Assembly: GCA_022496205.1 (NCBI GenBank)
Contig: WTXD01000023.1
Location: 310,001 to 374,000, forward strand
Length of the DNA stretch: 64,000 nucleotides
Reading direction: 5' to 3'
Source: Gloeopeniophorella convolvens
Taxonomy: Eukaryota; Basidiomycota; Agaricomycetes; Russulales
Shown here: one piece after another, positions 2,313 through 37,574 of the stretch
Layout of the letters: each line of letters opens with the position of its first letter
Numbering within the stretch: position 1 is the stretch's first letter
Notes under the pieces: model-generated
Told to the model about the DNA's origin: nothing
The model's database searches: none
What the model saw: the letters and a program-made list of their open reading frames with translations, nothing else
Position numbers and translations under genes: made by a program

Positions 2313-3611
2313 TTAGTTCGATGGGACGTATGGTACCAGGGCAGGGTTCAGCCACTCGAAATTAGCAGCGCCCTCAAAGTTCTCGCCCGGCTTGCCACCA
2401 GTAGCAGTGCCCAACCAGCGGTGATAGATGTTCTGACCAGGATTGGCCCCGCGCGCGGAGAGGTTGAACGTGACCTCGGACCCGTCCTGCAGGGTGTACT
2501 CCAAGATGAACCCGGCGGGCACAGTGACGCCCGCCTGGACCGCGGAGCCGTAGGGCGTGAGCTTGCTGATGTCCACCGACTTGGTGCCCTCGACTGAGCA
2601 CTGGTTCTGCAGCACCGTTCCGCTGCTCGAGAGGTAGCCTGTGTTGAGCGGGCGCGACGAGCCGAGCGCGGTCGCGGAGACGAAGGAGAGGTCGTATGGG
2701 CCGACCTGCGCCGAGCCGAAGTACCACGTCGAGACGGCCTCGTTGAGCGGGACGGGCGCCCAGTTTGCGTCGTGGTAGCCCGATCCCTCGAACACGAGCG
2801 GGGAGCCGTCCACCATCGCAGACACGGACGCGGTACCACCTGGGCTCAGCGGTGTGAGCCCATGGCCACGTGACGCGGGGAAAAAGAAGCACGTACCGGG
2901 AATAGTCGTTGCCCATCCGAGTTGATTGAACAGTATATTCTCTGCAGCACTTAGATTCGTGATGCCCGAGACGGCCGATGAGAAGTACGGTGTCGAGGTT
3001 GTGTCGCAGCCAAAATGATGCGCGTTATTCGTCTTGAGCGTGACGGCGCCAGTGAGGCCCGGTGCGTTGAGCTGCACCGTGAACGTGCTCAAATCAGACG
3101 AGAGTTGGAACGAGCCCGCGCCCGGCCACAAGCCGGTCACCGCCTGCCCGTCGGTAGTGACAGTTCCGGCGCTTGCGGGGATCTGGTCGAAGCTGAAGGC
3201 TGTGCCGTTCGGAAAAAAGCCGTTCGCAACCACATAGAACTCGGGTGTGCCCGCAGCGGGTGGGCCGGCAGCGATGGGATATCCTATTCGCGGAGCGCGG
3301 GCGCTGTTAGCGGGCGATGATTCAGCAGCGGAAGGCCGTGCACCTTGATAGAACAGCAGTTGGAGCGTCGGTGGGGGGTTGCTCCCCACGGGCGTGCCAA
3401 GCGCCTGGATCCACCACCACTCGACAGCCTCGTTGGACGCGTTTGGGTGGATGTATTGTCCATCAAACGATGGCAGAGTATCGCGAGGCAGGAAGGCAGA
3501 CGCCACTAAATCTGCACATATATCAGCAAACACGAATATGCAGACGCGAACAAGAGACGCACTCGCGAGGCCAATAGCAGTAACCAGACGAAGGACTGTT
3601 GGTGGGAACAT
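2313..3611 (-). CDS. secreted AttH/CrtC-like lipocalin-fold protein (hydratase or Diels-Alderase family)
   Basis: Three exons: 3611-3563, 3511-2897 and 2839-2313; 396 residues. Both introns (3512-3562, 51 nt; 2840-2896, 57 nt) have perfect donors (GTGCGT, GTACGT), are multiples of three and lack stops, so the frame also reads straight through. After splicing the N-terminus is a signal peptide ending near VASA|F. The body has the family's tryptophan-rich start (EAVEWWWIQALGTP), a second block EGSGYHDANWAPVPL and W-x-G-S-A-x-x-G-PYDLSFV. This pattern is that of the AttH/hydroxyneurosporene synthase superfamily, which in fungi includes kievitone-hydratase-like proteins and Diels-Alderases of secondary metabolism. 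No biosynthetic core enzyme lies beside it; the nearest tailoring-type enzyme is the FMO at 5731. Exact reaction unknown. Confidence 0.75.
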   Translation of the reverse strand: MFPPTVLRLVTAIGLASASLVRVCIFVFADICADLVASAFLPRDTLPSFDGQYIHPNASNEAVEWWWIQALGTPVGSNPPPTLQLLFYQGARPSAAESSPANSARAPRIGYPIAAGPPAAGTPEFYVVANGFFPNGTAFSFDQIPASAGTVTTDGQAVTGLWPGAGSFQLSSDLSTFTVQLNAPGLTGAVTLKTNNAHHFGCDTTSTPYFSSAVSGITNLSAAENILFNQLGWATTIPGTCFFFPASRGHGLTPLSPGGTASVSAMVDGSPLVFEGSGYHDANWAPVPLNEAVSTWYFGSAQVGPYDLSFVSATALGSSRPLNTGYLSSSGTVLQNQCSVEGTKSVDISKLTPYGSAVQAGVTVPAGFILEYTLQDGSEVTFNLSARGANPGQNIYHRWLGTATGGKPGENFEGAANFEWLNPALVPYVPSN

Positions 3612-3653
3612 GATATCCTGGCTGCCCTGAAACGTCTGGAACGCTCAGCCCTC

Positions 3654-17430: not shown

Positions 17431-19626
17431 CTAGCACGCGTCCGCCTGGATGCCGCGCAGCACCACGCAGACGCCCCGCACGAGGCGGCCCGCCTCGCCC
17501 TCACCCTCGTCCGCACCGAGCTTCTCGCGCGCGATCTCCGACTGCGCCGCCGCGTCCGCGACAGCCCGCTCGAGCGCCGCGATCCGCGCCCGCGCGTCGT
17601 GCAGCCGCCCGAGCGCAATCAGCAGCTGCGCGTCCCCTTCGCGCCAGCGCGCGGCGTCTTCTCCCGGCACGCACACGCGCGACGGGCCAGCGTCGTCTGC
17701 AATGCAGCGGGGCGTGAGCTCCGCGAAGATGCCCCGGCGTGCAGCGGCAACGTACCGCTGTACTGGCTCTCGGGGCTCAGCTCGGGCGACGGCTGGGCAA
17801 AGACATGAGGCGGGAGCAGCTCCGAGGTGGAGTCTGCCTGCACGGGTGCTGGAGACACGGGGCTAAGCCGATGCCTGGGGCCCGGTGCGTTTCCGGGGCA
17901 CTCACCGTATCGCTCGTCGGGCGCGGGCACCTGCGAGATTGAGTCGCCGGGCTCGAGCGAGCGCTCGCGGCCCTTGCCCTTCGCGTCCGCAGGCCACGGC
18001 GCGCGCTGAGGCCGGCTCTCATCCGCCTCCGTCTCGCCCTCGTCCTCCTCTTCCAGCACCTCTTCCGGAACTGGCGCCACCTCCTGCATCGCGTCTTCCT
18101 CAGCGTCCTCGGGCTCCGCGTCGAGCAGCCCATCCGACACGCGCGCCCAGCGGCACAGCACCCAGACCATCGTGCGGCGCGCAGCGGGCACCGGCCCACC
18201 AAACACCGGCGGGCCAAAGATGCGCGCGATGTCGTCCGGCGCGAGCCCGTTCTCAGGGCACAGCGGCACCTGCGTGAAGAACGCGCAGAGGTACGCAAGC
18301 AGCGCGAGGCGTGCCCCGGGCAGCAGGCGCAGCAGTGCACGCGCGAGCGCGACTTGACCCGTCTCCTCTGCGGCGTCACGCGCCGCCCTGCGGGCAGCGC
18401 GCTCGATCAGCGCGCGGCGCGACGCGCGCGGGGGCCGCTGGCCGGTGGTGAAGAAGCGCTGCCGTGCGTCCTCCTCCTCGTCCTGTTCGCGCCGCGCGCG
18501 TTCGTCTTCGCGCTTGACGCTCGGCCGCACACACCAGTTCCAGAACGCATTGAAGAGTGACGGAGGGAGGACGGGCTCGGGCAGGTCTTTGAGGTACGTG
18601 AGGAGGAGTGCGCAGGTGTCTGGTGTTGACTCGGCGCGCAGGCTCATGCCCTCGCCAAAAGCCGGCGCGGCGTCAAAGAGCGTGCAGAGCTCATGGTGCC
18701 GCTGGCGGTTCGGGAGGTCGCGGAAGAGGCCGCTCTGGTAGATCCCTGCCGTACGCGCGTCAACAACAGGGCTGACAATGACGATAGAATACGCACCGGT
18801 GCGGTACAGCTCTTCGACGCAGAGGAAGACGACGAGGGGCAGGTCATGCCGGTAGCCGCCAAACACCGCGGTCGCAGGTGCGCGGAGCACGCTCTCGTCC
18901 AGCGACACGCCAAATATGTCTGTCCCACCTGTCAGTGCACCGCACGCTAGTGCATATCCAGCAGCACGCACGTGTATTCTCGTCAAAGATCGACGGCTCC
19001 TGCCCGGAACGCATGCGCGCCATGTGCGCGCGCTCGCGCTCGCGCCGCTGACGCTGCTCGACGTCCGCGCGCCACATCGCATCCAAATCGCACGCTTCCA
19101 GGTAATCCCGCACATCCTTCCCCTCTGCGCGCAGCAGGCGCTTTATCTGCACCAATAGCGGCCACAGCGGCCACTTGGGCGCAGGCAGTACCGGCGCCGG
19201 CGCCGGCGCCGACGGCTGCACCCCGCGGACCTGATGCGGCGTCGGGGGGAGCCGCGGCGTGCGCCCGCATGCGCGCTCAAGGCGGTCGCACTCGGTGTCA
19301 ATGCGCGGGAGCCCGAGCGAAGCGGGCAGCGAGACGAAGCGTGCGCGCGCGCCGTGCGAGTGTCCCGGCGGGAGGCGCGGCGCGCGGGGGAGCTCCGGGA
19401 CGGAGAGCCCACGGGCCCGGGCGGGGTCGTCGTCGTCGCCGAGGTCGGGCGGGGGGAACCTGGGCGAGGCAAAGTGCAGCGCTGCGGTCTTGCGTGGGGT
19501 GTGGATAGGGGATGGGTAGGGGGCCCGTGGGGAGCGCGGGGACGCGGGACCGGTCGCGCTGCGGTCGCGGGTACGGCGCTGTGCGCCGGGGAAGCGGCGG
19601 CCGGGGTCGTAGAGGGCTTGGTTCAT
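17431..19626 (-). CDS. RhoGAP-domain protein with C-terminal coiled coil
   Basis: Model of five exons: 19626-18972, 18919-18797, 18745-17906, 17848-17756 and 17696-17431; about 658 residues (the second exon may begin at 18928). The first 200 residues are Pro/Arg-rich and disordered. The RhoGAP domain starts at FGVSLDESV and contains the arginine-finger block SGLFRDLPN, the LPEPVLP loop and IARIFGPPVF. An acidic linker (EEVLEEEDEGETEADE) follows, and the protein ends in a predicted coiled coil (LIALGRLHDARARIAALERAVADA). It should switch off a Rho/Cdc42-type GTPase and so shape actin or polarity. Two introns (51 and 57 nt) are multiples of three without stops. A longer start (MPRCHL...) at 19659 is possible. 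Confidence 0.85.
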
Positions 19627-20338
19627 GGCGGGGTGGTCTGTGAGGTGGCAGCGCGGCATGCGGGGGGGTGTCCTGGCCAGCAGGGGTGGGTTTGAGCTAT
19701 TATCCAGCGGTGCGGGGTGATGCAAGCGGGGGTGCGGGCGCAGATAGCGCGCTGGAGGCACGTCAGGCGTGCGTTCTGACGCGGGCTAGGCCGTCTCGCG
19801 TGCGCCCGACGCGGGGTGCCCTGCGTCATCTGCGGTCCTGGCTGCTTGGAACTGTCTCAGCTCGTTCAGCCCGCCCCTAGTTACAATCCAGACCGCGCAC
19901 CGCCGCCAGCCCCGGACTCAGCGGCTGCCCACACGCTCGCGAGCCTGCGGCCGTGTGCGCGACGACGTCACCACGCAAAGAAAGGCTGTTTCTTGGGCGT
20001 TCCGTGCCCGGCAGACCGGCTATCACAAGGTGCGCAGTTCGAGAACCCAGGAGAACCCCCCGCAAGGCACTCGATGAAGTTCTGGACCGCACGACTGATT
20101 CGCCGTGTGGCCCCCCCGCCTGCGATACAAATCAGGCAGGTCCAGCTCGTCGCCCTGGCCAGCGGCTCCTCGTCCCAGCGATGATGATGTCATAATACAG
20201 AGCGCTCAGCCCGCCCGACGCCGGCGCCGACGTGGTCGTATGAAATCTTTTGTTTTGGTATTCCTCAGAACATCGATACGGGCCGTGTACACATGCTACA
20301 CGGCCAAAGAGACTACTACACTGCGCCCCTCCGCATGC
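19627..20338. other. intergenic, no gene seen
   Basis: RhoGAP promoter region and 3' flank of the importin gene. No supported frame. Confidence 0.5.
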
Positions 20339-23792: not shown

Positions 23793-25090
23793 CTTGATCT
23801 CGAGATCAGAGTAACACCGTGGGGTATCTGAATGACAGCAATAGGAAAAGTGACAGTAAGAGATCGAGGGCGGGCCCCAGGATGAGGTTTGCGGGGCGAG
23901 GATTCAAAACGGTGGCTTGCGCGATCGAAGTGGTGGATGCACGTGTCGGTCTATGGATAAAAAGAAATTGTGACCCAGGCTGAGACTCTGGAGACGTTCT
24001 GCGAGTATACGGAGCTAGTCAAGGGCGGGTCGGCCAGTGATCGTGTTTGACGATGAGACGAAGATAGAAAGATGTCCGGGCGCCCGTCGTCATTCATTTC
24101 TTTCCTCTTGTGCGTCCCATGACTCCCGCTTGCCTCTTCGCCGTGTTTCCGCCTTCCTCTGCGTCACTCAAGATCTAGAATATCACAAATCTCGCGCCTT
24201 GCATCCCGAAATCCGCGCTGCGAGGTTTCGGTAAGGCACCGCTCTCCAATTAACTTTTCAGCGGATCACAAGTCTCGTTCTGTCTTTCTTCACGTCTCAC
24301 GCCGAGTAATCGATGTCCTTTACTGCTCTGATCCAACCAGTCGGTCTTTCATCACTGTCGCTTTGTGAAGACCTGCAACTACTGTCTGTATATGCCGCCT
24401 AGTTCAAGTGCAACCCAAAGATAAATGGCACACAATTCCGTCAATATGCCGTGGTCATGCAGGTTTCGTAAACTTCTCCTGTTGTTGTAGCTTTGGGCTT
24501 CTCTTCTCTAACACAGCTTTCCCAAAGTTCCGCTCGCTGTTGCCGTCAGCACCCTGCTGTGATATGTCCGGCATGGAACATGACTGGCTTGACTCTCGGA
24601 GAGTTGAACAAATTCAGGCCTCGACAGTGCCACGTACCCCACCTCAGACCGCAACACATGTCTTCCGCTATGACATTATTAGTTATCCTTGACTTTGACC
24701 CCACATTATGCGCCTTGCATGTTGTAGGGCGCTGCCTTATCTCGGGACGTGCCGCCCCCTTCTTAGCTTCGCTGGCACGTCGTGACTAGGTGGTCAGCTA
24801 ATGTACCCGTTCTGGCTCTAGCACAGAATTCATTTCTTGGTTTAGAACCCTTCCATTGTTTGCAAGGTTTCCAGACGCCCAGCCAAACTCTCTCTGGTGC
24901 TAGTCCACGCACCTTCTTATCTGCTCGCAATCGCCGCTGCCCCGCCGACCCTTGGACCCGTCGTTCGCTATATTTCGTGCTGTATCCTCGACCCTCATTA
25001 CATCGCCTCCATAGCACGCGGTTGTCCTCTAGTATCTCGCAACAACACATACCACCGATTCGGCCCGGACAGGAACATCTTGATCCCACC
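23793..25090. other. divergent intergenic region; open frame leads into ispE
   Basis: 1.3 kb between the importin and ispE starts. From 24782 to 25090 the ispE frame is open for 103 codons with no ATG. This part is Arg/Ser/Leu-rich and poor in acidic residues (for example LSARNRRCPADPWTRRSLYF). Otherwise no gene is seen. Confidence 0.5.
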
Positions 25091-26086
25091 ATGGCCAGCC
25101 CTGCATTAAAACCCACTGGCTCGGTCACCGGCTTAACTTCTGGCGAAGTGACTGGCGACAAACCTTCCAAGGTGCATGGTTCTACCAACTGTTCCGCTCC
25201 TTCGGAGACGATCACAGTCTACGCGCCCGCGAAGCTCAACCTCTTCCTTCACGTCACGGGGCGGCGCTCAGACGGCTACCACACGCTACAAACCGCCTTC
25301 CAGCTCCTCGACTACTGCGATGAGTTGGAAATTACCCCGCGCGACGACGAGCAACTCACGCTACGCTGCGAACGCGACTGTGCGACAACTCTGCTCGACG
25401 ACGCGGCGTTGGCGGCGCTGGACGGCCCGGAGAACCTCGTCCTGCGTGCGGCGCGCAGTCTGCAGGCGACGACCGGTACGCGCCTCGGCGCAGTCATCAC
25501 GCTACGCAAGCGTATCCCGGTCGGCAGCGGGCTTGGTGGTGGCAGCGCGGACGCCGCCGCAGCGCTTGTAGGGCTCGCGCGCGTGTGGGACGTGCGCATG
25601 TCGCGCGCAGAGCTGGCAGCGCTCGGCGGACGTCTCGGCGCGGACGTCCCGGTCCTCGTGCATGGGCAGAGCGCGTGGGGCGAGGGCACCGGCGTCGAGT
25701 TGGCATCCCTGGCGCTGGCGCCGCGCATCTTCCTCGTCGTCTACCCGGCCGTGTGCGCGCTGACGGGCCCCGTCTTCACGCACCCAGACCTGATGCGCGC
25801 GACGCCACGCATCACGCGGGAGGCGTTCGAGGCAGGCGAGGTGGAGACGCGTAACGATCTGCAGCCCATCGCGGAGACGTTGTTCCCGCCTATCGCTGTT
25901 GCGATTCGGTGGCTGAGTCAATTTGCTCCAGCGCGCATGAGTGGTTCCGGAAGCAGTGTCTTCGCGAGCTTCGACAGCGTGGAAGCGGCGCAGCAGGTGC
26001 TGGAACAGGTTCCTGAGCCATGGGGTGCATTCATAGCGCATGGGCTCGATACATGGGACCACTTTACGGGAAGACGGCAGGTCTGA
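25091..26086 (+). CDS. ispE: 4-diphosphocytidyl-2-C-methyl-D-erythritol kinase (GHMP kinase), bacterial-type
   Basis: Intronless, 331 residues from the ATG in a strong CCACCATGG context. A 41-residue low-complexity lead (MASPALK to SETI) precedes the enzyme. IspE signatures in order: APAKLNLFLHVTGRRSDGYH with the substrate-site Lys and His, then QTAFQLLDYCDEL, the GHMP ATP loop IPVGSGLGGGSADAAAAL, LGADVPVLVHGQSAWGEGTG with the catalytic Asp, and the glycine-rich C-terminal RMSGSGSSVFASF. All catalytic positions known from E. coli IspE appear kept. IspE phosphorylates CDP-methylerythritol in the MEP isoprenoid pathway, which is bacterial and plastid; fungi make isoprenoids by the mevalonate route. 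The lack of introns among intron-dense neighbours, and the family, suggest horizontal transfer; codon use looks like the host. No other MEP gene is in the window, so the true substrate may differ. Confidence 0.9.
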   Translation: MASPALKPTGSVTGLTSGEVTGDKPSKVHGSTNCSAPSETITVYAPAKLNLFLHVTGRRSDGYHTLQTAFQLLDYCDELEITPRDDEQLTLRCERDCATTLLDDAALAALDGPENLVLRAARSLQATTGTRLGAVITLRKRIPVGSGLGGGSADAAAALVGLARVWDVRMSRAELAALGGRLGADVPVLVHGQSAWGEGTGVELASLALAPRIFLVVYPAVCALTGPVFTHPDLMRATPRITREAFEAGEVETRNDLQPIAETLFPPIAVAIRWLSQFAPARMSGSGSSVFASFDSVEAAQQVLEQVPEPWGAFIAHGLDTWDHFTGRRQV

Positions 26087-26572
26087 GTAGTCTCTCGCTC
26101 GAATCAACGGGTCGTACTGGACGTGTACCTACATATGCATCACCCCGCCGCGTTGATCCACGGAAGCGCACCAGCTCTTCCCTGCCCTGTATCCTCCTAG
26201 TGACAAATAAACGCATCGTTGTTCATCTTTGGAAAGCTCGGACAGAGGACGTCTGGGTCGGCTACACGATGAAGGTCGCAGTTGTGCTGACTGGCCAATG
26301 ATTGCTTCGAATTTAGCGCCCTCCGGGAGGTGCCGAAACGCCTTTTCCGATAGCAGTCGGGGTCGCGTTGCGGAACTTGCCGCTGGCACAATTTCGCTGT
26401 AGGGACTCGTTGCGTCTGCGTTGCATCACGGAGTTCAAGCGTGCGCTCTGCCATAATTGGCTCGCTGCAGGATCTTCTCACTGTCATTCGCTTCTGTCAA
26501 GGTCCACCATGACGGTCGTTTATGGAGACTCGCTTGGCTCTCCGACCCCTTCTTTGGAAGTTGGCCACCACC
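26087..26572. other. spacer between ispE and P450
   Basis: 486 bp, no gene. In-frame ATGs at 26509 and 26522 precede the chosen P450 start but would place extra residues before the membrane anchor. Confidence 0.5.
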
Positions 26573-28705
26573 ATGCCTTCCTTGATCATTATCGTTGACA
26601 TCCTCGCCTTTGTGTCATTCATCTCCCTCCTCCATGCACTGCGCGACCATCGGCGCCATCAAGGACTCCCATACCCCCCTGGTCCACATCCGTGGCCAGT
26701 TATCGGCAACCTATTCGACATTCCAAAGACCTTCTCTTTTCTCGCATACACCCAGGCCGCGAAAAAATATGGTGCGTGTCGCCATTCAAGCTTCAAGGAG
26801 TGTGATTCTTACGATATGTGTCGCAGGAGACATTATATCTTTTCATATCTTCGGGCAGGTCATCGTCGTGCTGAACTCCGCCAAGGCTACGAAGGATCTA
26901 TTTGAAAAGCGGGGTGACATCTACTCGGACCGTCCTGTGATCCCTATCTTTGAAATGTCTGTGCCTCGAATGCTGTTTCGCTGTTTTCGAACTGACACCG
27001 TTCAGGATGGGATGGCAGTGGTTCGTCCCCTCCGGGCGGCTTGGCGAGCCCTGGAGACTGAGGCGCAATGTGTTGGACCGTGGCCTTCGCCCGGGTGCCG
27101 CAGCGTCATACCGTCCTTTGCAGCAAACGCGCACGCGTGTGCTCCTCAGCCGGCTGTTAGCAACTCCATATGAATGGGGCGCCCATATAGAGGTGTCAGT
27201 CTCTTATGTCGCATAGTCTTTTATCCTATACTGATCTTCCGATGTCTAGCCTCCAAGGAGAGCTCATCCTGGCAGCAACATACGGTTACGATGTTCAAGG
27301 GCACACAGACAGGAAACTCGAAGTTGCTAGACGGATGTCCGACATTGCCTCTGCAGTGGCTCTTCCGGGCGCTTTGCTCGTTAATCATCTCCCATTCTGT
27401 ATGTTTTGCTTCAGGATTGATCAGCTGAACTACCCAATGACGACATCTTCAAGTGCGTTATATACCCGAATGGTTGCCCTGGTTAAGTTATTGGCCCGTC
27501 GCTCGCTTAGGGCAGGCTGTAGGAAGAGAGGTCATCTACGATCCGATCCGGTTTGTCAGAGAGAGCATAGTGCGTAGACGGTTGTTTCTACGAACACGGA
27601 CGGTTTCCGTAATAGGGCATTGCCGCAGCTCAATGGTACTGCACGTCCATCGCTCGCCCTTTCCAATCTCCAGGAGACAGAGACTATGAGTGGACCCGAA
27701 AGGGAGAGTGCGGAAAGAGTTATTACCGATGCCCTTGGGTCTATGTATGCGGGTAAGCATCTAGCGTCGACATGGTACTCTGACTGAGTACCTCCCGTAG
27801 CGGGTGCTGATACTGTGCGTAAGAAAGAAATAATTGCGTTATGGCTGCTGATCCTTGAATTTCCTCTCCAGACTGTGGCGGCTATCTTGTCATTTTTCCT
27901 GGCCGTTCTCCTTCATCCGGATACGCAAGCGAGGGCACAAGCTGAACTCGATGCTGTCACGGGACGAGAGCGACTTCCAACGTTCGAAGACCGACCACAA
28001 TTGCCGTATGTGGATGCTCTGTGCAAGGAAGTCTTACGATGGCAGCCTGTGGGACCTTTGTGTGAGTCTGTCACACTATCGAGCCAGCCAATCCCTCAGA
28101 CATGCGATTTTTATTCAGCTGTTCCCCACGCCACGACGCAAGACGACGTATACGAAGGCTACTTCATACCTAAGGGTATGCTGTTCCTGTCTATACTTCA
28201 TAACTACAGAGTCTCACGATTACTCGCATTCAGGCGCAATAGTCATCGGGAACTCGTGGTAAGTCGGCTTTCACGATCGTTGTGCTTGGCTGAACCCGCT
28301 GTAGGGCGATCTTGCATGACCCTGCCTCGTACCCGCAGCCAGATGCGTTCAACCCAGAGCGCTTTCTCAATGCAGATGGGAGCTTGCGCGACGACGCTAT
28401 TCTAGTATCCGCATTCGGATACGGGAAGCGCATATGCCCAGGAAGGCACTTTGTCGATGCGACACTCTTTATCGTGGTTGCATCCGTGCTCTCTGGGTTC
28501 AATGTCGGGAAGGAGAAAGGTACCGGAGGGCAGTTGTTCGAGTACACGTATTCGGGAGAAATTGTCAAGTGCGTGTCCGCTCAGTGTCAACAAAGGCACA
28601 GACACTGAACACTTATCCAGCCGGCCTCATCCATTCCTATGTTCGATCCTTCCGAGAGACAAAAAGGCGAGAGAGTTGATCATTGCGGAAGATATGGGTC
28701 TGTGA
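26573..28705 (+). CDS. cytochrome P450 monooxygenase
   Basis: Twelve exons: 26573-26771, 26827-26956, 27006-27194, 27250-27398, 27454-27569, 27629-27752, 27801-27814, 27872-28061, 28119-28175, 28234-28258, 28305-28568 and 28621-28705; 513 residues. Start chosen for Kozak context and because it opens directly on a membrane anchor (SLIIIVDILAFVSFISLLHAL), followed by the Pro-rich hinge LPYPPGPHPWPVIGN. Key motifs: I-helix AGADTT (split over two exons), ExxR in KEVLRW, PERF, and the haem loop FGYGKRICPGRHF with the cysteine ligand. C-terminal SILPRDKKARELI is usual for Agaricomycete P450s of the CYP64-like/O-methylsterigmatocystin-oxidoreductase-like group (inferred). Exon 7 is just 14 nt. ER-bound oxygenase; substrate unknown. 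Same strand as ispE, 486 bp downstream. Confidence 0.92.
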
Positions 28706-29292: not shown

Positions 29293-31268
29293 TCAAACGC
29301 GTTCTCTGACCTTTTCAATAGCCTCAGAGATCATGTCCTCCAGTATCGACGAGAAGTACTCGGCGCGCCTGAAGAAGACCTTGAAACAGAAGGCGCAGCC
29401 CCCGTCTATGATGTGGGGCTCCAACGTAGCCAAGAACGCGGCCTGCGCCTTCGCCGGATCGACGACGGCGCTCGCGCGGCCGGAGCGGAGGTCGTCCGCC
29501 CGCGACCGGACGAGATCCCGCCACCAGACAGGTTCGTATCGCCGGTAGACTTCGTCCGCGATATAGCATCCCTCCTCAAGGACGCCCACCACCTCGCACA
29601 CCCGCACAACGGCCTCCGAGAAGGGCACGACTGCTTTCTCCAAACACGTGAGAACGGCATTACGGCACTCCGCACGGTATCGCGCGAGCTCGTAGAGCGC
29701 TGCCCCGTCGAAGCAGCGCAGCGTTGCGCCGAGATCACTGAACGTCATGGGCTGGTTGAGGGTGAGGAAGGCCGCACGTCTTGCCTCGAGCTCAAGGTGT
29801 AGGCGACTGGCGAGTGCGTATGCGTGGAATGGCTGCTTGGGATCGATGTTCGGAAAGTCGCCGGCGAGGACCTGACTACGAATATTGATTATGGCGCTCT
29901 CCATCTCGTACTTCTCTGCAGCGGCAAGGAGTTTCAGGACTGCTTCGTATGAATCCGGTACGGAGAGGGGAAGTGGGTATATGAGAGACAAAAGTCCGTT
30001 GAGAGAGTTGGAGTCTTCGGAGACACATATCACGGGGATGTCAGCCTGTTTCTCCTGGGAGTTGGGCGCTGTCTGGGGAAGGGAGAACATTGTTCGGAAG
30101 AAAGGGGAAGCAAGTGAGAGGAGAAGCTTGTGAACGCGGAAATCCACGAGATTTGACGATCGTAGGACTAGATCAGCATCTGGTCGATCAAAAGGTGCGC
30201 CGAATGGCATCGCAGCTACGGGTGTCGAGCTTGAGTGAGGGGAAACCTCCAGGGCATCATGTACATCGTCCTCGAATACGAACTCAGAGTCCGCCTGGCT
30301 CACGTTAGTAAGCCAGATTGCCGTGACGATTGAGCTCAACGTACCAAAGATAGTGCTCCTTCCACTACTTTTGTCAAAGCTTCCCAGAATGCGTCAATCA
30401 GTTGGGGAGGTTTGCTTCTGCAGAAATCGCATCTGGTCGACGCAACGTGGTCCATGAGGAACCGATGAAACTTCGTGAAATCGAGGATAGGGCGCGAAGT
30501 CTGCATAAACCTGAGGAACCCGTCAAGCCAGACTGGCACACCAGATGCGAGCATCCGTTCACAGGCCATTCTGTTTTGCGGACCCCACATACGTCTTGTT
30601 TCGGTTTGTTCCCCGAGCCTAAATTGAGTGAGAGCGCGGGATAGGTGAAGGTGGCTGTTTTCGCGATAGAGCTGGAGCTGATACAGGGATGTGCCGTGGG
30701 TGTACTTCAGACTCTCTCCAAGCCCCTGAATGGACAGATGCGATTCCAGGGTAAGTCGCGCTGCAGCGAGCGTTTCTGGGAGAAGACGGTTCTGCCAGGC
30801 CAGGCCGTAGGCTGAAAAAGCATTATCCCGGTGGACGAGATTTGGCCGTTCCTTCTCCACGAAAGTTCGGAGCAGTGTCATAGCGGTATCCATCCTGTAT
30901 TTCTGCGCCGCCGCAAGAACAAGGGTAAGGTTCTCCTGGTTGTTGGGTATGGAAACGGTGACAGGGAATATGGCAGTCAATAAAGGGTAGAGTGTGTCGT
31001 GGCGCTCGGGAAGCTGTACAACGGGTAGAGAGACGCATGCACGCTTTTCGGCGTTATCTGTGGATTGCGAGGCAAGCGCTTGCGATCGAACTATCTCCCT
31101 GAGGACGGGGGAAGCTTTGAGAATTGTTGCTTTGTTAACGCGAAAGTCGACCCGGTTGGACGAGCGCAGGACGAGATCTGCATCCGGGTCATCGAAAGGA
31201 GATCCGAATTTGATCGCTTTGCTACCCTCGACGTATCGAAACCCCTTTGCGTATGATACGTCGGTCAT
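29293..31268 (-). CDS. double BTB/POZ-domain protein (modules A and B)
   Basis: Model: exons 31268-30345 and 30294-29293, 641 residues. Module A starts KFGSPFDDPDADLVLRSSNRVDFRVNKA, module B GAPFDRPDADLVLRSSNLVDFRVHK; both are the start of a fungal BTB fold. Each ends with a helical part and a CxxC pair (CDFC in A, CAFC in B). The intron 30295-30344 has a GTACGT donor, a perfect TACTAAC branch site and a CAG acceptor; splicing avoids the stop right after the donor and joins A to B in frame through a linker ADSEFVFEDDVHDALE. Read unspliced, A would stop by itself and B would need its own start (30210). BTB domains mediate dimerisation, often in Cul3 ligases; such families are expanded in mushrooms. 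Partner unknown. Confidence 0.75.
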
Positions 31269-32121
31269 GGACGCTCTGTGTGTTCGCTGTGGGTGCCGTT
31301 ATGTGAGCTCACCTCGAAATTTACGTGATGGATGACCTACCTAGAGCGCCGCAAAGCCGTAAGATCGTCTGCCAGCAGTGCTCGGGCAATCCAACAAGCA
31401 GGGGGACAACGGACTAAAGGGGCCCCACAGAGATGTGATAGTTGCGAAAGTGTAGGGCTTGTAGGTTGACGTAGTTATAAATCGACTCAGGGTACACCTG
31501 GCAGCTGATACTCGGAAGGGAACGGTGGTGCTTGCGAGTCGGCCGCTGACTCGGAGTGTCTCACTTGGGAGCCACGCCGGATTACGCTCGCCTTCGGAGC
31601 AAGTCCAGATCTGCCGTAAATGAGCCCATTTAGCGGCCGGAGAGTGGCTACGATAGGCCGTCATTGGAACTGGGATACGTGGCCCAACAGCAGCTGAGGA
31701 GAGCGACGGCCGATGATGTCACATGCAGGTACAAGGAATGGAGGGCCTATGAGACTCGATTAGACCTGTGCGAGCAGAATCCTACAGAAAGCAAGGTAGA
31801 GTCTGACCAAAAGCACCAAGTGCGTACTTGGGAGAGCGGCATTTGGCAGCGCGTTGGTGCACGTGTTGCAACTGCATACACGGCGGGGCTGGCGTATTAT
31901 GCATTGCAATGGCTTGGATCACACTCAGGTGACGGCTGTGCCCGGCGAAAGTATCAATAGTGGTTTGCTGAGGAAATCGTTGGCTCGTTCGGAGGAAAGG
32001 AAGTTGAGGCAGAGAGGACACAGCTCTGCTCACCCTGAGTGAGACTCGCCGAGAGACGCGCCACGCGCCGTGTACGTACACGTGGTCGTGGTGAGAGGCA
32101 CGTGCCACGTGTCGTACTTAG
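31269..32121. other. divergent intergenic region
   Basis: No supported coding frame. It must contain the 5' end of the ubiquitin-like gene, whose first exon I could not define; an acceptor-like TACTTAG ends at 32121. Confidence 0.45.
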
Positions 32122-34229: not shown

Positions 34230-35276
34230 ATGTCTGACCCATCCCTCGATTCCACGGCATCTGTCAGTTTTGGAGCTCCCTTCGACTTCATAGATGCCGA
34301 TCTTATCGTCCACTCCTCGGATGGCATTGCTTTCAGAGTGTATCACACGTTCCTCGAAAAATCCTCCCCCGTCCTCGCTCAAACACTACTTGAACTCAAC
34401 CACCCCACTAACGATCCCAACGCCACGAAGCCCGCCCCTGCATCCACCGGAGAAGACATTACGCTCCCTGGTCCTCCTAGCGGCAATTCTTCCTGTCCCC
34501 ATCTTCCTTCCTCCCACATTCGAACGTGCTATTCCCGCGCTCGTTGCAGCGAAGAAGTACAAGGCAGATGCTGCCCTGTCCACCTTACGACTCTGTCTTG
34601 ATGGAAGGATTTATGACATGGTCAAACCCGAAGACGCGTTCCGCGTGTTTTGTCTAGCGCGAAGAAGCGGACTCCTTCGTGAGGCCCTTGCACCAGCCAA
34701 GGTAGCGCTGGATCATCCCATCACTATCGAAGGCCTCGGAGACAAGCTGCTATTCGCGTCGGCCACTTCCTTGCATGAGTTAGTGAGCCTTGAGCGACGT
34801 ATCCAATCAAACTTAAATTCAAGCATCTCTGGGCTGCGAGGAACCGTTAACGTGTTAGAAGGCATCTGGGGTGCGCTCGGCGAGTGGTGTAGTGACTTCT
34901 TCAGGAGCAGCATACCGCAGTGGGTTGATCACGCCGTCGCGTTGCTAGCCTCGAGCACCCACCCAGTTCTGGATCAGCGTGTGTTCTATGTAGTTTTACA
35001 AAGTCATATCAACGACTGCCCATCTTGCGGAGAAATTCCCACCTCGTTCATAACGGAGTTTTGGAGTTTGATCTCACGGATGGCACGCGCAGCAATCTCA
35101 CAGGTAGGAGCAATGACAGCTTGGACACTATCGTTCACCTCGTCTAATTGGCCTTCCCGCAGGCTGAGACCGATTTTATGGAAGAGCAGGACGCGAGTCC
35201 TCCACGCTCACTGGACTTCCTACCCCCTCCACACGGATCCTCTGAATACTATCAGTGGCGCGGTGTTCGCCACTAA
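34230..35276 (+). pseudogene. BTB-domain gene, module C, frameshifted
   Basis: Starts MSDPSLDSTASVSFGAPFDFIDADLIVHSSDG, a clear BTB start. Near 34455-34475 the family pattern moves to the +1 frame (LVLLAAILPVPIFLPPTFERA), with a few residues missing; no intron fits, so this is a frameshift or sequence error. It continues with helices, CPSCGE (the CxxC pair), an intron 35104-35162 at the same place as in module A, and a tail AETDFMEEQDASPPRSLDF. The last ten residues and stop come from the inverted repeat of the transposon-like element at 35247. It resembles module A more than B. Confidence 0.7.
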
Positions 35277-35832
35277 GCGCCAGAGCGTACAGTGTTCGCC
35301 ACCTGGCCTTGCACGCCGCAAATCTGCACCGATTCCTTTTGTTTCTTCTGTATTGTATGTATATTCAATGCATTTCATTGTGTATGTAGTGCGACACTGA
35401 GGAGTGATCTGAATCTTTGAAAATCTGCGATATACTGCTCAAATGCTGCAATCTTGGGCTTTATTAGCACCCTGCTATGTTACTGACACTTCTGGTCATC
35501 CTAAAACTTCATAGCATCAATCCAAAGCACATACGTATTCTATATGCAATGTTTCCGAGGTGAAAAACCTGTTCAATCCACCTTCAGATGTAGATTCATC
35601 CTGGGTATGGGTAAGTGGCGAACACTGTACCCTTTCGACCGGCATCGCTCTGGCATCATGGTAAATGTATTTCTTCACTCCAAACCAAGACGAGAAGACT
35701 ATTGTACATATGGAGTACCTTCTGGAGAGATTTCATGACACACAGTATCGATTTGGGTGAGATATTGCAAGTACAAAAGCATGCACCCCATGCGCGCGGG
35801 CCGGGGTGGCGAACACCGCGCCACTGATAGTA
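35247..35832. mobile_element. MITE-like element with 27-bp terminal inverted repeats
   Basis: The left end 35247-35273 and the right end 35806-35832 are perfect 27-bp inverted repeats containing ATCAGTGGCGCGGTGTTC. Subterminal inverted repeats pair 35287-35302 with 35615-35630 (GTACAGTGTTCGCCAC), and 35279-35287 (GCCAGAGCG) with 35646-35654. The ends are bounded by TA, so the insertion may have a TA target duplication as in Tc1/mariner-type elements. The interior (about 300 bp) is AT-richer and has no transposase. Total about 0.58 kb. Confidence 0.8.
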
Positions 35833-35833
35833 A

Positions 35834-37030
35834 TGGTCTATGCTCCGCAGCGTAGCCGATCCGGACATCCTCTTGGTATCCTGTGATGGAGAAAACTTCC
35901 CTGCGCACAGATCCTTACTCGCAGCATCATCGCCATTTTTTCGAACCATATTTTCTCTCCCCTTACCCCAGAATGATGCCCAAGAGGGTTCGGAAGATAT
36001 GCAAGACGGCTTACCTGTCATCCGCATGTCTGAGCGCTCTGAGGTCCTGGATGTTCTGCTTTCCATACTCTATCCCAGCCCATTTCCCACAATCAGCTCC
36101 TACACATTCACACTGCACGTTCTCGTCACAGCCCAAAAGTACCAGATGGAGAGCACTGTCTCCCTGATCCGAGCATTAATGTCCTCAGCGCAATTCCCCA
36201 GAGCGCCAGTCGACGACGATTTGTACCATGCGTACGTGTTCGCCTATCGCAACTAACTGGCTCAAGAAACGAAAGAGATTGCGCTCCTCTCCTTCAATGG
36301 AACGCCAGCTAAGCTTTGATGACATTGGAAGCGCCTTGTACTCTATCGAAGGCCCTGATATTCACCCCCTCTTTCAATATCGCAGCAAGTGCCGTCAGGC
36401 CGTCGTTGAGTGCCTCCAAAATGCCCTCGAACTAACGTCCGAAGCCGCCAGGGAGTTGTTCGCACCTTCCACGCGTATCCTTTCTATTCCTGGTGCCCAC
36501 CAGAGGGAGATCCAGAGCTTCAGTTACTCAAACTGCAAGGAGCTTTACATGAGATCGCCGCGCTGGTGGGGAGATCTTCTTGTCAAGATAAAGTCCGAGG
36601 TCGAATCTGGAAAAAGGTCCCCATCGGTCAAATCTCTAGCAATTCGACAGTTATTTGAGTCATCCCTGAAGAAGCATGCGTATGTGGAAGGTCAGAATTC
36701 TTGCTTGATGTGCGCGACAACTTATGCGGAGAGAGGACCGCGGTTCTGCGCCGCATTGGAGGATGAAATAAACGATGCTATCCGCCAGGTGAGTTTCGCA
36801 TCCGAGCCATCAAACCCTGGATTCTCCGCCGCCTGTCGAGTCTCCGTACCGTCATCAGTGCTCACAGGGGTTATCGTGTCACTCATAGCCTGCCTTCATA
36901 GGTCCCATTCATCCTCCCCTGGCCAGAAGCCGACAATGCACAAGGCATCTGCGCACCCAGTTGCAGGCTCACTTGCAACCTCCCGGTCCCAAATTGGTGG
37001 AACCGATATACTCATCAGTGTAGAAACTGA
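35834..37030 (+). pseudogene. BTB-domain module D, broken
   Basis: Frame starts in SMLRSVADPDILLVSCDGENFPAHRSLLAASSPFFRTIF (BTB fold, first strand shortened). It matches module B in later landmarks: LYHAYVFAYR, QLSFDDIGSAL, RWWGDLLVKIK and the CxxC (CLMC) before ALEDEINDAIRQ. There is an in-frame TAA at about 36255, and the pattern changes frame near 36300 between FNGTP and QLSFDDIG, so the module cannot be read through. An intron at the usual place (starting GTGAGT near 36789, ending before 36902) leads to a 42-residue tail ending at 37030. Confidence 0.65.
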
Positions 37031-37574
37031 GTCTCTTGCTCGTTGGTCCTGTTTCATCACTAAAATCCGTCGTCGCCATCGTCCTGTATCATTCGACCAC
37101 GCTTGATCTTACGTCTTTGGAACACCTAGTAATCTGTATGCGTAACCCTTGGCCTTCCTGGCAATCACAGAATCAGCTTTCGGTATCGTTTCACTTGAGT
37201 ATGCGGCCATGACCAAGCCATGATGCCCTTGTTCACGCCCCAGATTGAAGACGGTTGACGTTGAGAATTATGTACACACAGGTCGTGAATCTATGGACTG
37301 CAGTTCTCGATCACAGAACATTACCGTGGTTCGCTACTAAGTGCAGAAGCCCCATACCTTATCCTGGAGGCGGGCGAACAGTTACACGACCTACGCCTCA
37401 TGTTCGATGAGAGCGAACATAATTGACCCTTCGGCCTTTATTTGGTCAATAATCTCAAACATAGTACAGGAGCGAATACAGAGCGTCGATTGGCAGACGA
37501 AAGTATCATACCGAGAGTTGTATCGCGAAATTTCACAAGAAAGAGGGTTGGCATCAAGAAATGGGACGGTAAAG
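37031..37574. other. convergent intergenic region, no gene seen
   Basis: Between BTB module D and the stop of the phosphoesterase gene. Nothing recognised. Confidence 0.5.

Follow-up and report, generated by a model that had tools for sequence, protein, structure and literature searches.

A proteobacterial-type ispE gene in Gloeopeniophorella convolvens and other Russulales: probable origin and predicted function

Background

IspE is the GHMP-type kinase of the 2-C-methyl-D-erythritol 4-phosphate (MEP) pathway, with CDP-methylerythritol (CDP-ME) as its substrate. Here we describe an ispE gene from a fungus, Gloeopeniophorella convolvens (Basidiomycota, Russulales), which lies in a 64,000-nucleotide stretch of contig WTXD01000023.1 (positions 310,001 to 374,000), called the window below and numbered from its first letter. 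The enzyme family is already known, and the new part is its setting. Compared with bacterial IspE (TIGR00154; E. coli 1oj4), the fungal protein has the same whole fold, GHMP motifs, catalytic Lys and Asp, and cytidine pocket; however, it differs in a 12-residue insert, a WDHF-type tail and the replacement of Phe189, and its host is one in which other MEP enzymes were not found.

Several described systems come close to this situation. Mevalonate-using bacteria may retain incomplete MEP pathways, for which non-isoprenoid roles have been proposed (PMC13001223). In Listeria and some Enterococcus and Streptococcus, one or more MEP enzymes are likewise retained beside the mevalonate pathway; however, several steps remain in Listeria and methylerythritol cyclodiphosphate is made, whereas G. 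convolvens is a eukaryote with a single step (PMC13001223). In the basidiomycete Tricholoma vaccinum, labelled mevalonolactone was incorporated into geosmin, while labelled deoxyxylulose was not (PMC7910269).

The nearest fungal case is Her005768 of Hericium coralloides, also in the Russulales, an annotated ispE in a chromosome-level assembly (Chr05), which is expressed, dikaryotic mycelium exceeding three fruiting-body samples by log2 1.5–2.0 (PMC11508549). However, the authors treated it as a terpenoid-backbone gene, the word "horizontal" occurs 0 times in the text, and the likeness to the G. convolvens gene is one of annotation alone. The quantitative RT-PCR section of that paper gives Her005678, perhaps a slip for Her005768. 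For ispE up-regulation, the same paper cites a Wolfiporia study; that study (PMC3743799) reports mevalonate genes only, with "ispE" occurring 0 times in its text. A literature search judged by title and abstract start returned no paper on fungal ispE or its transfer, PMC11508549 covering one in its body text.

Identity of the gene

The gene is intact and encodes 331 aa, as the first-pass annotation had claimed from the letters of the stretch, and all the IspE landmarks listed there (APAKLNLFLHVTGRRSDGYH, GSGLGGGSADAA, LGADVPV and RMSGSGSSVFA) are present. The gene and its N-terminal features are as follows.

25091..26086, + strand: ispE, a single unbroken open reading frame (ORF) of 331 aa (P0001), ATG at 25091, TGA ending at 26086
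25085..25094, + strand: start context CCCACCATGG, near the eukaryotic start-codon consensus
25091..25216, + strand: N-terminal extension, residues 1–42

The curated equivalog model TIGR00154 scores the protein at 207 bits (cut-off 138.7), and its cut-off is also exceeded by the Lactarius psammicola, Russula, Artomyces and both Dentipellis proteins. It is the only one of the seven IspE models listed for P0001 to be above cut-off; the six narrower ones fall below their own, the next being NF011202 (201.8 bits vs. 204). The homoserine- and mevalonate-kinase models listed reach at most 46 bits (NF002288 46 vs. a cut-off of 194, thrB 28.2 vs. 168.25, NF003036 23.7 vs. 403). The fold is nearer to IspE than to other GHMP kinases, and structural alignment with the IspE entries of E. 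coli and Klebsiella gives 42–44% identity. A fungal mevalonate or homoserine kinase is ruled out by the profile scores and the structural comparison. A Pfam scan at E ≤ 0.001 returned GHMP_kinases_N and GHMP_kinases_C alone, and thus no amino-acid-kinase domain, which is the fold of isopentenyl phosphate kinase, although the protein might still have such an activity on the side. Among bacterial relatives, E. coli IspE scores ~205 bits, and those of M. tuberculosis, A. aeolicus and T. thermophilus score 85–100 bits.

The coding part is continuous, as bacterial homologues align through the whole ORF and the sole internal surplus of 12 codons is filled in 12/12 fungal-type proteins; the description of the gene as intronless thus holds for the coding part. 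An unspliced intron is ruled out as the nature of this insert, which is conserved as protein in the fungal relatives. Codon use is indeed host-like, with a third-position G+C content of 0.745 against 0.558–0.785 in 11 pieces of host ORFs (taken raw, with introns left in), but this is weak evidence, two of six bacterial ispE genes being rated more host-like than the fungal one. A search for bacterial-type promoters in 24700–26600 gave 0 matches, where the chance mean is 0.7, so their absence is barely informative. In the predicted structure, the first three ten-residue blocks of residues 1–42 have model confidence below 60, and the other fungal members have a shorter extension, apart from Artomyces with its ~30 extra residues.

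Relatives and origin

Five named Russulales orthologues (Lactarius psammicola, L. quietus, Russula compacta, Artomyces pyxidatus and Dentipellis fragilis; 51–67% identity) and five metagenome proteins (62–69%) make up the ten best matches after the protein itself, while the other 109 matches listed show 45–53% identity and are bacterial wherever named. A fungal-profile search added Dentipellis sp. KUC8613 (53% identity over 69% of the query), and named fungi outside Russulales were absent from the 120 matches it listed. The retention of ispE is therefore wider than first noted, with six named species besides G. convolvens.

A tree was built from 96 rows (10 of 12 fungal-type proteins, 25 of the 109 other matches and 61 of 80 loci), comprising fungal and beta/gamma-type proteobacterial sequences only and rooted at the midpoint. 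The fungi form a single clade (support 100/99, stem 0.50), which is nested in a 32-row set (95/93) in which all named bacteria belong to the gammaproteobacteria. Within the clade, Lactarius, Russula and four metagenome rows group together with G. convolvens next (100/99); Artomyces and Dentipellis branch outside them, their mutual order being unsettled in the tree. This branching order agrees with Russulales taxonomy, from which we deduce a single transfer with vertical inheritance thereafter. The proposal of an old bacterial transfer kept under selection is supported by the six further orthologues, the one clade beside proteobacteria, the shared insert and the invariant active site, and, at the level of sequence, transfer, descent within the order and active-site constraint can all be regarded as established.

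The source appears to be beta/gamma-proteobacterial as judged by similarity scores, and the donor was probably a gammaproteobacterium. In the free tree, the sister of the fungi is a group of Pseudohongiellaceae/OM182-type bacteria (93/93). A partial insert of 6–7 residues occurs at the same place in three of the four sister-group rows (P0035, P0043 and L036, the last flagged for odd letter composition) and in five other bacterial proteins, and its presence in the sister rows hints at the same donor as the free tree. However, the donor is not pinned, because two other placements of the fungi were not rejected in approximately unbiased (AU) tests, one grouping them with Burkholderiaceae (p-AU 0.098) and the other with Steroidobacteraceae and their near kin (p-AU 0.096). 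One tree row from a bin titled Klebsiella pneumoniae (L051) has its ispE among betaproteobacterial rows, far from other Enterobacterales, and probably represents a mislabelled bin or contig.

The gene sits inside a 422,830-base contig with fungal-type genes on either side and 0 N in the window. A Pfam scan of ten neighbouring ORF pieces found G-alpha, RhoGAP, importin, cytochrome P450 and vacuolar-protease types among them, in agreement with the placement of the gene between fungal genes in the first-pass annotation.

Fungal-specific sequence traits

Two traits set the fungal proteins apart in the alignment:

25364..25399, + strand: 12-residue insert, residues 92–103
26054..26071, + strand: C-terminal tail WDHFTG, residues 322–327

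Counts of full-length fungal proteins refer to ten sequences, which exclude P0010 (a fragment without the N-terminus) and P0121 (the Dentipellis sp. KUC8613 protein, with a non-IspE-like C-terminus). The insert is present in 12/12 fungal-type proteins, whereas at most 7 of its 12 columns are occupied in any of 261 bacterial proteins and its position is empty in 237 of them. The span from Asp77 to Leu116 measures 40 residues in all ten full-length fungal proteins vs. 28 in 225/261 bacterial ones, and it is longer in two bacteria (41 and 63 residues). Within the insert, Cys93, Arg95, Cys97 and Leu101 are identical in 10/10, as is Trp322 of the tail. Fixed fungal changes relative to the 261 bacterial sequences are S153A, T157A, C257L, A288S and G313A, some of which occur in a minority of bacteria.

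Active site and predicted catalysis

In IspE–substrate structures, the cytosine is sandwiched by Tyr24 and Tyr175, with His25, and Lys9 and Asp130 sit by the acceptor hydroxyl (A. aeolicus numbering; PMC2655357, PMC3340893). The corresponding fungal positions, assigned by sequence alignment and with roles taken from these papers, are:

25232..25240, + strand: Lys48-Leu-Asn50, E. coli Lys10/Asn12, catalytic lysine and its partner (PMC2655357, PMC3340893)
25277..25282, + strand: Tyr63-His64, E. coli Tyr25/His26, predicted cytidine pocket (PMC2655357, PMC3340893)
25523..25558, + strand: GHMP phosphate-binding motif GSGLGGGSADAA, residues 145–156
25643..25645, + strand: Asp185, E. coli Asp141, predicted catalytic base (PMC2655357)
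25775..25777, + strand: Phe229, E. coli Phe185 / A. aeolicus Tyr175, predicted cytosine stacking (PMC2655357, PMC3340893)

Lys48, Asn50, Tyr63, His64, Asp185 and Phe229 are unchanged in the ten full-length fungal proteins, and Lys48 and Asn50 are also kept in 261/261 bacteria. The glycine-rich loop 145–152 is likewise kept in the ten. All 15 selected site columns are identical in the ten, compared with 98 of 281 core columns (p 6.5e-8) or 49 of the 62 columns that bacteria keep at ≥95% (p 0.017), both p values being descriptive, as columns and species are non-independent and similarity guided the choice of bacteria. Of the same 15 positions, P0010 keeps all 11 that it covers, and P0121 keeps 14, with Gly285 lost.

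The constraint on the cytidine pocket leads us to the view that a CDP-linked polyol is still what the enzyme phosphorylates, because a substrate without cytidine would leave the Tyr63/His64/Phe229 pocket free to drift. In the proposed mechanism, Tyr63, His64 and Phe229 would grip the cytosine of the CDP-linked polyol, Lys48 and the glycine-rich loop would position the ATP phosphate, and Asp185 would remove the proton from the acceptor hydroxyl, giving a CDP-polyol 2-phosphate as the product. From these residues we infer catalysis on CDP-ME or a close analogue.

The MEP pathway in the host genome

The 36.7-Mb G. convolvens genome, the one genome covered, was searched in six frames, an approach that could miss a small gene split by introns. 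At E ≤ 0.1, 0 matches were obtained with the models for ispD, ispF, dxr, ispG and ispH, and at E ≤ 1 the Pfam IspD profile also gave 0, whereas of 14 control genomes 9 to 14 are matched by these models. For dxs, three weak matches fell below the cut-off; two were identified as pieces of transketolase (L006) and pyruvate dehydrogenase E1-beta (L008), and L007 is the third. A complete MEP pathway was thus not found by these searches, and the gene stays "lone" within their reach. That fungi are not expected to contain CDP-ME, as the first-pass annotation pointed out, still makes the gene a puzzle.

HMG-CoA reductase, the marker of the mevalonate pathway, is present on two contigs, in two pieces each time. 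The two copies have identical match scores (C124:264512-265670 and C175:1674-2832; L009–L012), one of them on a 14.5-kb contig, and the 3.8-kb loci agree at 79% of positions without gaps, probably representing a second haplotype or a duplicate contig. The GHMP N-domain matches at five places in the genome, ispE included; two of the other four were identified. One is a homoserine kinase, which exceeds its cut-off; the other is an exon resembling mevalonate kinase, which at 70.9 bits falls short of its cut-off.

Possible explanations

On balance, we favour as a whole a single passage of ispE from a proteobacterium into the common ancestor of the Russula, Artomyces and Dentipellis lines, vertical inheritance since then, and a working GHMP kinase that would still bind a CDP-linked polyol. 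Bacteria associated with the fungus or plant tissue might supply the substrate, or it might be a CDP-polyol of the fungus itself that has so far escaped recognition. Several observations weigh against this account: CDP-ME-making enzymes were not found in the genome, and only six named carriers were seen besides G. convolvens. Position 189 is Phe in 261/261 bacterial sequences but Leu (8), Met (1) or Gln (1) in the fungi, which also carry Ala in place of Ser153 and Thr157, so that the pocket rim may have shifted. The bacterial sample was chosen by similarity and its 80 loci also by a G-rich-loop pattern, making the conservation of the loop columns partly selected-in. P0121 is IspE-like over about its first two thirds and then has an unlike C-terminus, which may reflect a faulty gene model, an intron or decay of the copy. 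A further step, that Russulales run a functional non-plastid MEP step by phosphorylating CDP-ME from bacteria or plants, or a fungal CDP-polyol, which would be a metabolite class new to fungi, is offered tentatively, and we regard it as doubtful.

An enzyme that has abandoned CDP-ME for another small metabolite, e.g., isopentenyl phosphate, and so feeds terpenoid output is the strongest competitor, although we hold it to be unlikely. IspE (ychB) was reportedly once described as isopentenyl monophosphate kinase, and such a change would suit a genome with a mevalonate marker and no other MEP enzymes found, as well as the fungal changes at Phe189, Ser153 and Thr157. Most fungi are without a true isopentenyl phosphate kinase, so the step would be vacant (PMC3857490), and the H. 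coralloides gene rises together with farnesyl and geranylgeranyl diphosphate synthase genes (PMC11508549); however, this co-regulation comes from one study whose genes were selected by KEGG map, and the cytidine-contact residues are invariant in the ten full-length proteins. A new substrate is thus less likely than a retained CDP-polyol kinase, and the suggestion in the first-pass annotation that the enzyme may act on another substrate is not favoured, even with Phe189 replaced in all ten, while its case for bacterial origin and retention stands. A non-catalytic binding or regulatory role would suit a host with no evident substrate source and could use the insert, with its two invariant cysteines, and the fungal tail; it is quite improbable given the invariance of Lys48, Asp185 and the ATP loop. 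The small number of named carriers and the one Dentipellis gene model without a normal C-terminus could also fit a functionless passing gene or bacterial contamination, but the long contig, N-free window, fungal-type neighbours, six further species, shared insert and one clade make this the least credible reading of all. Contamination or chimerism in particular is judged very unlikely from the contig setting, the orthologues, the insert and the single clade.

A single MEP enzyme kept in several Russulales lines without pathway partners (one genome checked) points to a hidden substrate, product or metabolic exchange. The occurrence of "ispE" in fungal KEGG maps should be taken with caution as evidence of the MEP pathway.

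Other observations in the window

At 2313-3644 (− strand), the window encodes an AsqO/Diels-Alderase-type protein (PF25581, 88 bits); the annotated G. convolvens form has 376 aa, and the raw ORF therefore seems to include small introns. The 41 proteins found with it are, where named, basidiomycete by the taxonomy of their genera, bar one Mariannaea. The G+C content peaks at 0.70 in 18001-20000, over part of the RhoGAP gene region, the other 2-kb steps ranging from 0.51 to 0.65. By eye, BTB/POZ-like genes stand in a row at 29293-31298 (− strand) and ~34300-37100 (+ strand).
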